Origin: Paracoccaceae bacterium
GTDB taxonomy: Bacteria > Pseudomonadota > Alphaproteobacteria > Rhodobacterales > Rhodobacteraceae
Direction: 5' to 3'
NCBI GenBank assembly: GCA_018222665.1
Contig: JAAEZW010000138.1
Location: forward strand, 1-5,700
Length of the DNA stretch: 5,700 bases
Shown here: one piece after another, positions 3,592-5,629 of the stretch
How the letters are laid out: the number at the start of each line of letters is the position of its first letter
Position numbering within the stretch: the first letter of the stretch is position 1
The notes under the pieces: model-generated
What the model saw: only the letters and a program-made list of their open reading frames with translations
The model's database searches: none
Told to the model about the DNA's origin: nothing
Made by a program: the position numbers and the translations under genes

Positions 3592-3620
3592 CAAGCGTTG
3601 TTGTAAGTATTTTAAGAATT

Positions 3621-3647
3621 CGACACGCGAACAGTGTTCGCGTGTCG
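3621..3647. terminator. Probable bidirectional terminator between convergent genes
   Basis: A 27-base inverted repeat has 13-base perfectly complementary arms (CGACACGCGAACA and its complement) around one central base. As RNA it would form an 11-bp stem with a five-base loop. It lies 30 bases after the RNase stop and 36 bases after the leuA stop on the other strand. Neither side has a clean U-tract: the + side continues with TATAAG and the - side with AATTCTTAAAAT, which is the more T-rich. Termination in both directions is the natural reading, but transcript protection or a protein-binding dyad is possible. Confidence 0.6.
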
Positions 3648-3682
3648 TATAAGTCTGAAAACAAAAGCTGCTGTAGCCTAGA

Positions 3683-5251
3683 TTAAGACACGTCTTTCCA
3701 ATTCACTTCACGCTGGTCTTCGCCCAGACGACCACGGCGGACGTATAGGCGGTTTAGCGCATTGAGATAGGCTTTGGCGCTTGCCACAACGGTATCTGTG
3801 TCGGCCGATTGGCCCGTGGCGATATTTCCGTCCTCTTCCATGCGGACGCTGACGGTGGCTTGGGCGTCTGTGCCTTCGGTCACGGCGTGAACTTGGTACA
3901 ACTGCAGGCGGGCTTTGTGTCCGTAGAGCGCCTTCACCGCGTTGAAGGTTGCGTCAACGGGTCCGTCACCTGTGGCGGTTGTTGATACTTCTTCCCCGCC
4001 GATGATCAATGTCATTTCTGCGGTTTGTGGTTCACCCGTTCCGCAGACCACGCGTAGTGATTTCAACGTAATGTGATCATTTTCCGCATCTTCGCCCGCA
4101 CGCATCAATGCAATTAGGTCTTCGTCATAGACCTCTTTCTTGCGATCTGCCAATTCTTTGAAACGGACAAATACATCCTTTAGCTGATTGTCGGCCAACA
4201 CATATCCCAAATCTTCCAATTTAGAGCGTAGGGCCGCACGGCCAGAGTGTTTGCCCATGACCAAGTTTGTCTCAGACAGGCCAACATCCTCGGGGCGCAT
4301 AATTTCGAATGTTTCAGCGTTTTTCAGCATGCCATCTTGGTGAATACCGCTTTCGTGGGCGAAGGCGTTTTTACCAACAATTGCTTTGTTAAACTGCACG
4401 GGGAAACCCGAAACCGATGCAACGCGGCGTGAAATATTCATGATCTTGGTTGTGTCGATACCTGTGAAATAGGGCATGATATCGCCGCGCACTTTCAATG
4501 CCATGACAACTTCTTCTAACGCCGTGTTGCCCGCGCGTTCGCCAAGCCCGTTGATGGTGCATTCGATTTGACGCGCACCACCTTCGACGGCTGCCAATGA
4601 GTTTGCCGTCGCCATGCCAAGGTCATTGTGACAATGCGTTGCAAAGATGATGTCATCCGCACCTGGAACCTTTTCAATCAACATGCGGATCAAATCGGCG
4701 CTTTCAACAGGGGCTGTATATCCCACGGTATCGGGGATGTTGATTGTTGTTGCACCTGCGTTGATCGCGATTTCGACAACGCGGCACAGATAGTCATGTT
4801 CAGTGCGTGTAGCGTCCATGGGTGACCATTGGATATTGTCACACAAATTGCGTGCATGGGTCACGGTTTCGTGAATACGCTCGGCCATTTGATCCTGATC
4901 CAGATTTGGGATCGCGCGGTGCAATGGCGATGTGCCGATAAATGTGTGGATGCGTGGGCGTTCCGAATTGCGCACGGCCTCCCAACAGCGGTCAATATCG
5001 CCGAAATTTGCACGGGCTAGGCCGCAAATTACGGAATTCTTACTGCGTTTTGCGATTTCGGATACGGCGCGAAAATCGCCCTCTGATGCGATGGGGAACC
5101 CTGCCTCGATAATATCAACGCCCATGTCGTCCAAAAGCTCGGCAATCTCAAGCTTTTCGTCATGCGTCATTGTTGCGCCTGGGGATTGTTCACCGTCGCG
5201 CAACGTCGTGTCAAAGATCACGATGCGGTCTTTGTTGTCGGATTGTGTCAT
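3683..5251 (-). CDS. leuA: 2-isopropylmalate synthase
   Basis: LeuA condenses acetyl-CoA with 2-ketoisovalerate, the committed step of leucine biosynthesis in the cytoplasm. The 522-residue length matches the bacterial type (E. coli has 523). The HMGL-like TIM barrel begins with IFDTTLRDGEQSPG, containing catalytic Arg18 and metal ligand Asp19. The other metal ligands are His206 and His208 in THCHNDLG and Asn242 in NGLGERAGNTALEE. A linker with HESGIHQDG and MGKHSGRAAL follows, and then, from about residue 390, the C-terminal regulatory domain that senses leucine (HITLKSLRVVCG... GDGPVDATFNAVKAL). Feedback inhibition by leucine is expected for the family. The start ATG has the weak site AGAGA six bases upstream and overlaps a short upstream ORF by ATGA. 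A leucine-rich leader peptide and long complementary segments precede it, indicating leucine-dependent control of expression. It converges on the RNase E/G gene, with a palindrome between them. Confidence 0.97.
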   Translation of the reverse strand: MTQSDNKDRIVIFDTTLRDGEQSPGATMTHDEKLEIAELLDDMGVDIIEAGFPIASEGDFRAVSEIAKRSKNSVICGLARANFGDIDRCWEAVRNSERPRIHTFIGTSPLHRAIPNLDQDQMAERIHETVTHARNLCDNIQWSPMDATRTEHDYLCRVVEIAINAGATTINIPDTVGYTAPVESADLIRMLIEKVPGADDIIFATHCHNDLGMATANSLAAVEGGARQIECTINGLGERAGNTALEEVVMALKVRGDIMPYFTGIDTTKIMNISRRVASVSGFPVQFNKAIVGKNAFAHESGIHQDGMLKNAETFEIMRPEDVGLSETNLVMGKHSGRAALRSKLEDLGYVLADNQLKDVFVRFKELADRKKEVYDEDLIALMRAGEDAENDHITLKSLRVVCGTGEPQTAEMTLIIGGEEVSTTATGDGPVDATFNAVKALYGHKARLQLYQVHAVTEGTDAQATVSVRMEEDGNIATGQSADTDTVVASAKAYLNALNRLYVRRGRLGEDQREVNWKDVS

Positions 5252-5289
5252 CTGAGTTCTCTTTTTCTATGTCTACTAAGCGGTGTCAT
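5248..5289 (-). CDS. Possible 13-codon upstream ORF overlapping leuA start
   Basis: ATG at 5289 opens a frame encoding MTPLSRHRKRELR and stops at TGA 5250-5248, which overlaps the leuA ATG as ATGA. Such an overlap would allow translational coupling. The only nearby purine-rich stretch at normal spacing is AAGAG, eight bases upstream, which is weak; the better AGAGGAG lies about 19 bases upstream, inside one of the leader's paired segments. The leader segment 5281-5273, which pairs with the leucine codons of the leader peptide, lies inside this ORF. Whether it is translated is unknown. Confidence 0.25.
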   Translation of the reverse strand: MTPLSRHRKRELR

Positions 5290-5358
5290 GTCGGTGCGCT
5301 CTTGTGTCTCCTCTGAGCGGACGCACCGGATATGGCACGCTCAGAGGCTGCTTAGTAG
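5273..5358 (-). promoter_or_regulatory. leuA leader: nested and interleaved pairing segments (attenuator-like)
   Basis: Read in the leuA direction, six segments form three perfect pairings: CTACTAAGC (5358-5350) with GCTTAGTAG (5281-5273), 9 bp; CCTCTGAGCG (5347-5338) with CGCTCAGAGG (5319-5310), 10 bp; and CGGTGCG (5328-5322) with CGCACCG (5298-5292), 7 bp. The 10-bp and 7-bp pairings interleave, so they either build an H-type pseudoknot (connecting loops of 9, 2 and 11 bases, sterically reasonable) or exclude each other. The 9-bp pairing closes the whole domain, and its 5' strand is exactly codons 22-24 of the leader peptide, CTA CTA AGC. The 10-bp segment starts in codon 25 and covers the leader stop codon. 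A ribosome waiting at the leucine codons would therefore mask both 5' strands. No U-tract follows any stem, so this is not a plain intrinsic terminator. I do not recognise it as a named riboswitch. Confidence 0.7.
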
Positions 5359-5421
5359 GAGGCCGAGCGCCAGTGGACCCAAACGGGTTTGACGCGATGA
5401 TATGGCACTAGAATTCAACAT
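5341..5421 (-). CDS. Leucine-rich leader peptide of leuA (attenuator peptide)
   Basis: A 26-residue ORF runs from ATG (5421-5419) to TGA (5343-5341), ending 89 bases before the leuA start. Its C-terminal half is LGPLALGLLLSSL: seven of the last 13 residues are leucine, and eight of all 26. The run CTC CTA CTA includes two tandem CTA codons, normally a rare leucine codon in alphaproteobacteria. This is the classic signature of an attenuation leader peptide whose ribosome stalls when charged leucyl-tRNA is scarce, comparable in principle to enterobacterial leuL. The peptide itself is not expected to have an enzymatic role. No Shine-Dalgarno sequence precedes the ATG, and the best promoter places the transcription start at or next to the A of that ATG. 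Codons 22-25 and the stop overlap two strands of the downstream folded region. The role is inferred from composition, position and structure together. Confidence 0.8.
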   Translation of the reverse strand: MLNSSAISSRQTRLGPLALGLLLSSL

Positions 5422-5428
5422 GTGTGCG

Positions 5429-5456
5429 ACTATAGCCAAGAAATTCGAAATGAAAA
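5429..5456 (-). promoter_or_regulatory. Putative leuA promoter (possibly giving a leaderless leader-peptide mRNA)
   Basis: On the - strand, TATAGT (5434-5429) matches the -10 consensus at five of six positions. TTTTCA (5456-5451) matches four of six -35 positions at a 16-base spacer. The expected transcription start is 5422 or 5421, the latter being the A of the leader-peptide ATG. Leaderless leader peptides are known from alphaproteobacterial trp attenuators (Sinorhizobium trpL). The -35 is weak, so the position is tentative. Confidence 0.45.
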
Positions 5457-5476: not shown

Positions 5477-5629
5477 CTATGCTTCGCGGGCGGCGCGGCG
5501 CAGTTTAAACGCGCGACGAAATCGGCCAACGCGATGTTCCTTGCCGCGTTCGGTAAGGTATTCTTCGATATTGCGACGATAGACCAAAACATTTTTGCGA
5601 TCTCGATTGCGCCGTAAAATCGTTGCCAT
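5477..5629 (-). CDS. Small arginine-rich basic protein, 50 residues, unidentified
   Basis: ATG at 5629 opens a 50-codon frame closed by TAG at 5479-5477. The product begins MATILRRNRDRKNVLVYRRN and contains 14 Arg and 3 Lys against 6 acidic residues, with stretches such as GRFRRAFKLRRAAREA. An in-frame TAA lies nine codons upstream with no other start between, so this is the only start. Codon choice (CGC, GAA, GGC, GCC) resembles the neighbouring genes. It has no membrane segment or cysteine motif, and the basic character would suit nucleic acid or ribosome binding; that is a guess from charge alone. It does not match DUF1127 or ribosomal bS21 patterns. No strong ribosome binding site is visible. 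Another - strand frame (TTG 5691 to 5467) is open through the same stretch, so the reading frame is not fully settled. It lies just upstream of the leuA leader on the same strand. Confidence 0.45.
   Translation of the reverse strand: MATILRRNRDRKNVLVYRRNIEEYLTERGKEHRVGRFRRAFKLRRAAREA

Follow-up and report, generated by a model that had tools for sequence, protein, structure and literature searches.

In the 5,700-nucleotide stretch of DNA analysed here (the window), leuA is preceded by a conserved RNA element of about 170 nt, and the short leucine-rich ORF carried by this element is probably a leader peptide acting as a translational attenuator. An earlier note, made from the letters of the sequence alone, had described a 26-codon Leu-rich ORF with tandem CTA CTA codons, 89 bases ahead of leuA. 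All of this is borne out: the tandem codons lie at 5358-5353, the C-terminal end of the peptide reads ...LGPLALGLLLSSL, and 89 nt separate the leader stop from the leuA ATG at 5251. The mechanical ORF list starts the same frame at a TTG at 5439, which gives 32 codons. The downstream gene, which the note held to make leucine, is confirmed as leuA by a match of its product, 2-isopropylmalate synthase, to the NF002087 profile (850 bits). The features of the region are collected in the Table.

Table. Features of the leuA leader region; coordinates are those of the window
Feature	Coordinates	Strand	Basis
leuA, 2-isopropylmalate synthase, 522 aa	3683..5251	-	ORF and NF002087 profile match
Leader peptide ORF MLNSSAISSRQTRLGPLALGLLLSSL, 26 codons, stop TGA at 5343-5341	5341..5421	-	Conserved C-terminal Leu run
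Promoter-like site: TTTTCA (5456-5451), 16-nt spacer, TATAGT -10 box (5434-5429)	5429..5456	-	Site search
Presumed sensor codons CTC CTA CTA	5353..5361	-	Sequence; CTT or CTA at codon -4 (four before the stop) in 66 of 69 loci
Further Leu codons of the leader ORF	5367-5365 and 5346-5344	-	Sequence
P0 5' strand CUACUAAGC (two Leu codons and AGC)	5350..5358	-	Pairing; excess of own over swapped partners
P1 5' arm CCUCUGAGCG, holding the leader stop codon	5338..5347	-	97.8% of cells paired; 3 pairs changed on both sides
P2 5' strand GGUGCG, in the P1 loop	5322..5327	-	Own-partner scores, alignment
P1 3' arm CGCUCAGAGG	5310..5319	-	Helix scores, alignment
P2 3' strand CGCACC, would close an H-type pseudoknot	5293..5298	-	Own-partner scores, alignment
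P0 3' strand GCUUAGUAG, its end 21 nt from the leuA AUG	5273..5281	-	Pairing; would enclose the pseudoknot as its base stem
Probable weak Shine-Dalgarno GAGA, 6 nt 5' of the leuA AUG	5258..5261	-	Sequence only

Two further observations concern the surroundings of the element. An Arg-rich ORF of 50 codons lies upstream of the leader (5477-5629, minus strand) and has no Pfam or NCBIfam match. At the other end of leuA, an inverted repeat seen by eye (gacacgcgaa...ttcgcgtgtc, about 3620-3650) stands between leuA and a convergent gene of the RNase E/G family; it is perhaps a terminator shared by the two genes.

The relatives of leuA compared here comprise 110 loci, 80 of them from named genomes; the closest LeuA among the named genomes, that of a Rhodobacteraceae MAG (L003), is 98% identical to the LeuA of the window. 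No leader was called at nine loci (L011, L019, L038, L049, L074, L075, L104, L105 and L110), and 12 were removed by hand: one duplicate (L112), five near-duplicates (L003, L083, L084, L085 and L093) and six judged spurious (L055, L056, L063, L068, L072 and L073). The working set consists of 89 loci, 69 of them family-like (LeuA at least 66% identical) and 20 distant. Subsets of the 69 were used for P0 scored with narrow segments (65 loci), for ribosome folding (59) and for the alignment A1 (51).

A strict detector, which demands at least four Leu in the last nine codons, three of them in a row, together with a stop-codon hairpin, is positive upstream of leuA at 62 of the 79 loci with a LeuA at least 66% identical (the window and near-duplicates included) and at 17 of 28 more distant ones. 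Its controls gave two hits in 1983 random windows from the same loci and one in 1070 shuffles. We also built a covariance model, R1, from 51 sequences of the window's family; it contains P0 and P1 only, and some of the genomes searched with it contributed to its training. Of the 198 genomes of the family, 193 have exactly one R1 match. The model also recovers seven of the nine loci at which no leader had been called, five of these lying before a cupin gene. The earlier note had set in advance a comparison of relatives, in which the Leu-codon run and the frame ought to persist while the surrounding sequence drifts, and this is the pattern found: the Leu run, the frame and the stop are kept, and the flanks and the length of the ORF drift. 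A Leu-rich ORF could in principle stand at this place by chance, since short ORFs are common and several others in the ORF list overlap the leader region. Conservation has already refuted this explanation, with the element in 193 of 198 family genomes and a detector that responds to 2 of 1983 random windows, and its probability is close to nil. The leader observation is real and far from chance.

Across the class, R1 with strict filters yields 23 matches in 385 genomes, the window's own genome included. All 23 lie upstream of leuA and on the leuA strand. Twenty-one end within 80 nt of the leuA start, while the other two (L123 and L126) are found 354 nt from leuA, before an inserted cupin gene of 118 codons. 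When applied to the leuA loci, the model is positive for 23 of 25 family-like sources and for 21 of 28 distant loci; its search of the Pelagibacteraceae loci L063, L072 and L073 found no element. Applied to the regions upstream of 69 leuA genes sampled from the whole class, a looser detector is positive in 16, of which at least L196 looks spurious; its controls gave 35 of 1740 random windows, which were not cleared of the element, and 4 of 1380 shuffles. The range of this detector is about 330-355 nt upstream, and it misses copies that precede the cupin gene (L175/G061, found by R1). Outside the window's family the element is patchy. In one annotated relative, L114, no feature is listed from the element (1382-1500) to the leuA start, in a collection whose gene table is incomplete.

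In most relatives the leader peptide ends in LLLLSRL, LLLLIRL, LLLSSL or similar, and the stop codon falls in the same kind of hairpin. Outside the window's family the ending is often LLLLSCP or LLLLIRP. The N-terminus of many relatives' leaders follows, by eye, the pattern M-(x)3-5-[HDN]I, frequently written ATGACACGG...CATATC at the DNA level. Since attenuation needs only the C-terminal Leu run, a role of this N-terminal pattern in leaderless initiation or in trans is conceivable.

The TATAGT box of the window is located 7 nt before the ATG at 5421, and in most relatives the corresponding gap is 7-8 nt. With the usual sigma-70 geometry, a transcript would start here within about two nucleotides of the ATG. 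The +1 of the leader transcript is thus predicted at about 5422-5421, at the leader AUG itself, and from this spacing and geometry the leader mRNA is probably leaderless. Among the relatives, a -10 hexamer with at least five of six matches to TATAAT was sought 6-9 nt before an ATG, no more than 160 nt from the leader stop and in all frames. Such a hexamer is linked to an ATG in 48 of the 69 family-like loci (the window included) versus 1.2% of shuffles. Each of these 48 ATGs opens a frame that runs uninterrupted through the Leu run to the stop, and the ORFs that they begin range from 18 to 38 codons, with 15 distinct lengths. The evidence that the ORF is translated in frame is strong. In the other 21 family-like loci no ATG-linked hexamer reaches the 5/6 threshold. 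An in-frame ATG is present in 15 of the 20 distant loci and lacking in five; at none of the 15 does the best hexamer exceed 4/6. The leaderless prediction is therefore limited to the window's family.

A leader that is predicted to be leaderless could also serve as a constitutive booster, loading ribosomes that reinitiate at leuA without any sensing of leucine; reinitiation at leader peptides has indeed been proposed as a general effect (PMC4833913). We regard this as very unlikely, for it leaves unexplained both the presence of a Leu run before leuA in particular and the covariation of the P0 helix described below.

The earlier note had placed the key Leu codons within a downstream pairing. 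They do form part of a perfect 9-bp complementarity, CUACUAAGC:GCUUAGUAG (P0), and in the predicted fold of the window this stem encloses a second one, CCUCUGAGCG:CGCUCAGAGG (P1). The fold energy of the window is not unusual (z -1.4), so that the case rests on comparison across relatives. In what we call the own-partner test, the strand of each species is paired either with its own partner or with the partners of other species, which separates pairing from base composition. Helices were scored ungapped within fixed segments; this replaced RNAduplex stems, in which P1 swallowed the P2 strand. Over the 69 family-like loci the own-partner score is 16.5 versus 13.8 +/- 0.29 for P0 and 20.2 versus 17.8 +/- 0.31 for P2, in both cases above all 2000 permutations. 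For the 20 distant loci, 4 of 2000 permutations were as good for P0 and 93 of 2000 for P2, the latter being weak. With narrower segments the mean P0 score is 16.1 with own and 13.8 with swapped partners. A score of at least 14 is attained by 42 of 65 own pairs versus 41% of swapped pairs, and by 21% when a far-upstream control region is used (63 loci). Leu codons and purine-rich start regions pair anyway.

Covariation was assessed in A1, a MAFFT alignment of 51 sequences that was not fitted to the structure. It contains 55 cells changed on both sides versus 22 expected, a figure matched by none of 500 shuffles, and slid controls gave 17-35. Eleven of the 25 pairs changed on both sides, which 2 of 500 shuffles equalled, and the covariation score was reached by none of 500. 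The fraction of paired cells is 97.8% in P1, 79% in P2 and 61% in P0; because of register shifts, P0 and P2 appear by eye to be partly misaligned in A1. P1 and P2 are predicted to form an H-type pseudoknot, which the earlier note did not mention, and P0 would be its base stem. No family of Rfam 15 matches the window element (E up to 5) or the elements of eight other loci.

A compact, conserved pseudoknot with a base stem is also what might be expected of an RNA that binds a protein or a small molecule, the ORF being incidental. Binding of a protein was proposed in 2005 for the actinobacterial LEU element, and leader mutations in S. coelicolor do not fit classical attenuation (as cited in PMC1262725). 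For the element described here this seems distinctly unlikely, however, since every one of the 48 ATGs that follow a -10 hexamer reads into the Leu run in frame, the length of the ORF varies by whole codons, and the Leu run is kept while its codons change.

The choice of Leu codons is itself unusual: CTT and CTA account for 46% of the Leu codons in the leaders versus 8% in the leuA bodies. This bias could result from complementarity within P0, from codon rarity, or from both. In the window's own genes CTA is not rare (14 of 140 Leu codons).

The position of P0 relative to leuA was determined in the 42 loci scoring at least 14. The 3' end of the helix lies within 12 nt of the leuA AUG in eight of them, 13-30 nt away in 27 and further in seven. 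Since P0 mostly ends 13-30 nt before the AUG, the Shine-Dalgarno is often outside the helix. The footprint of the 30S subunit is wider than the Shine-Dalgarno and reaches the region just 5' of it. P0 can thus cover the Shine-Dalgarno in some lineages, and in most it adjoins the 5' side of that sequence, within the wider 30S footprint. Five loci (L011, L019, L038, L104 and L105) have a small cupin-like gene, of 98-118 codons as called, between the element and leuA. In all five, the best P0 helix stops 4-10 nt short of the cupin start codon, which is where the Shine-Dalgarno of that gene lies; in L105, for instance, UCCUAACC pairs with GGUUAGGA, 4 nt before the cupin ATG. The placement of P0 before the cupin gene looks alike, by eye, in L123 and L126. 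Such an arrangement suggests that what P0 guards is the start site that comes first in the transcript, be it that of leuA or of another gene.

A terminator-like site was sought on the minus strand between positions 5000 and 5700 of the window, and none was found. A T-rich octamer between P1 and the ATG is absent in 81 of the 89 loci and present in eight. With no intrinsic terminator evident, classical terminator/antiterminator attenuation was rejected, and control by the leader would be exerted on translation or by way of Rho. Of the attenuation-type leucine sensor envisaged in the earlier note, the conserved leader, its frame and the pairing stand; the intrinsic terminator of the classical scheme is not evident, and that the leader responds to leucine is something we infer from these sequence features. 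Under control through Rho, when no ribosome is held on the leader, the untranslated stretch or the closed leuA start would allow Rho to halt RNA polymerase, and a stalled ribosome would avert this. The conservation of Leu codons, frame and pairing, with no intrinsic terminator evident, would be compatible with such a scheme, and Rho was raised for cys leaders that have no terminators (Seliverstov 2005, PMC1262725). Yet P0 is directed at the start region of whichever gene comes first, a cupin gene included, which suggests that translation is the target, and we consider control through Rho unlikely.

Translational attenuation, the reading that we prefer, would operate as follows. Transcription would start at or next to the leader AUG, and the leader would be translated without a Shine-Dalgarno. 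When leucine is plentiful, the ribosome would reach the stop codon inside P1 and then leave. The leader, once free of the ribosome, would refold into P1, the P2 pseudoknot and the base stem P0, and 30S subunits would be kept off. When leucine is scarce, a ribosome stalled on the Leu codons would cover the 5' strand of P0 and part of P1. P0 would then be held open and leuA translated. The complementarity, the covariation, the in-frame ORF, the place of the -10 box and the occurrence before leuA belong to the sequences themselves, while leucine sensing and the direction of control are predictions of the model.

The effect of a ribosome on the leader was estimated by folding with a 30-nt footprint, a crude procedure in which P2 is ignored. 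With the A-site at codon -5, the region from -30 to +9 becomes cheaper to open by 1 kcal/mol or more in 44 of 59 loci and costlier in five; the median cost decreases from 10.2 to 7.2. About the same drop is obtained with the ribosome on any of the Leu codons or on the stop, and the direction of the switch would therefore depend on ribosome dwell time. In the window, an A-site at the CTA codons makes -35 to +9 no cheaper to open (11.8-11.9 versus 11.3 for the free leader), and a slightly different stretch likewise shows no gain (9.1 stalled versus 8.9 free). The region from -25 to +9 does become cheaper, from 9.4 in the free leader to 7.2 and 4.9. The lack of gain over -35 to +9 arises because the CUGAGCG of P1 then pairs with CGCUUAG. 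By these estimates the ribosome-opening part of the model is weak for the window's sequence. The CUGAGCG:CGCUUAG fold was considered as a general feature and rejected, because it needs the GCUUAG form of P0, which by eye is not general.

Our judgement is evenly divided on a broader proposal: that one family of leaderless, ribosome-gated leucine switches guards leuA in at least two phyla, is near-universal in the window's family, and has a pseudoknot, with the Leu codons themselves in its base stem, to close the ribosome-binding site of whichever gene leads the leu transcript. If this is true, a class of translational switch that has no Rfam match has been found, and it would settle what the LEU element of 2005 does. 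The authors of that work left its mechanism open, and no later settlement was found among the literature matches listed. The window's family, in which the element is near-universal, has tractable laboratory members, and the P0 strands offer clean compensatory mutants, so that attenuation versus protein binding is directly testable. With the element come, in addition, a coding sequence missing from annotation and a structured leader matched by no Rfam model.

Several known systems share some of these features. The enterobacterial leucine operon leader (Rfam RF00512) likewise has a Leu-rich peptide before leuA, but it works by a classical terminator and antiterminator. In Sinorhizobium meliloti, the leader mRNA of the trp attenuator trpL/rnTrpL begins at its AUG, as is predicted for the window. 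Unlike the window element, this alphaproteobacterial leader acts by a transcription terminator, and neither a pseudoknot nor a ribosome-binding-site stem is described for it in the parts of PMC7298713 and PMC10117765 drawn on here. The polycysteine short ORFs of mycobacteria are also leaderless leader ORFs with a codon run of one amino acid, cysteine in their case versus leucine in the window element, and they have been proposed to attenuate downstream translation (Canestrari et al. 2020, as cited in PMC9031893 and PMC13236596). Among the literature matches listed, taken at the level of titles and the starts of abstracts, none describes the element in Alphaproteobacteria; Lopatovskaya 2010 and Vitreschak 2004 may do so.

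Two leuA genes encoding the other type of LeuA, on S. meliloti pSymB (L120) and on the Cupriavidus metallidurans megaplasmid (L121), have an upstream run of Leu codons, a hairpin and a complement near the start codon, as observed with no control. R1 does not match either of them. These leaders suggest that the arrangement has spread more widely than R1 shows.

The actinobacterial LEU element described upstream of leuA comprises a Leu-run ORF, a pseudoknot and a base stem formed by the Leu codons with the Shine-Dalgarno box (Seliverstov 2005, PMC1262725). Its authors favoured protein binding since leader mutants of S. coelicolor leuA do not fit attenuation (PMC1262725). For C. glutamicum leuA, a leader with four consecutive Leu codons has been reported (PMC4046766). 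We compared six actinobacterial leuA regions taken from plasmid-collection records. By eye, four of the six (Nonomuraea, Nocardia, Tsukamurella and Microbacterium) have a Leu run before a stop, and no Leu-run leader is seen in the two Streptomyces plasmid copies (L113 and L119). A best-helix search, run without a control, finds P1 and P2 in all four copies and a P0 between Leu codons and Shine-Dalgarno in Nonomuraea and Microbacterium only. R1 finds these same two copies at the right place, with weak E-values (0.005 and 0.02, respectively). It does not match the other two (L116 and L117), whose best P0 is not the stem between Leu codons and Shine-Dalgarno. With two of four copies found by R1, and weakly, common descent with the LEU element may be considered, as may convergence.

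The two elements differ in several respects. Their primary sequences are dissimilar, and a Streptomyces LeuA query is only 25-31% identical to the alphaproteobacterial LeuAs. The leader stop lies inside the P1 5' arm in the alphaproteobacterial element, whereas it is 3' of that arm in the four actinobacterial copies examined. The base stem of the LEU element, as described in 2005, reaches the leuA Shine-Dalgarno, whereas the alphaproteobacterial P0 often ends just 5' of it. They have in common, as far as the 2005 description was drawn on here, the upstream Leu-run ORF, the predicted pseudoknot, a base stem involving the Leu codons and the place at leuA. From its sequence and predicted structure, the window element is best regarded as a variant of the LEU element that occurs in Alphaproteobacteria.
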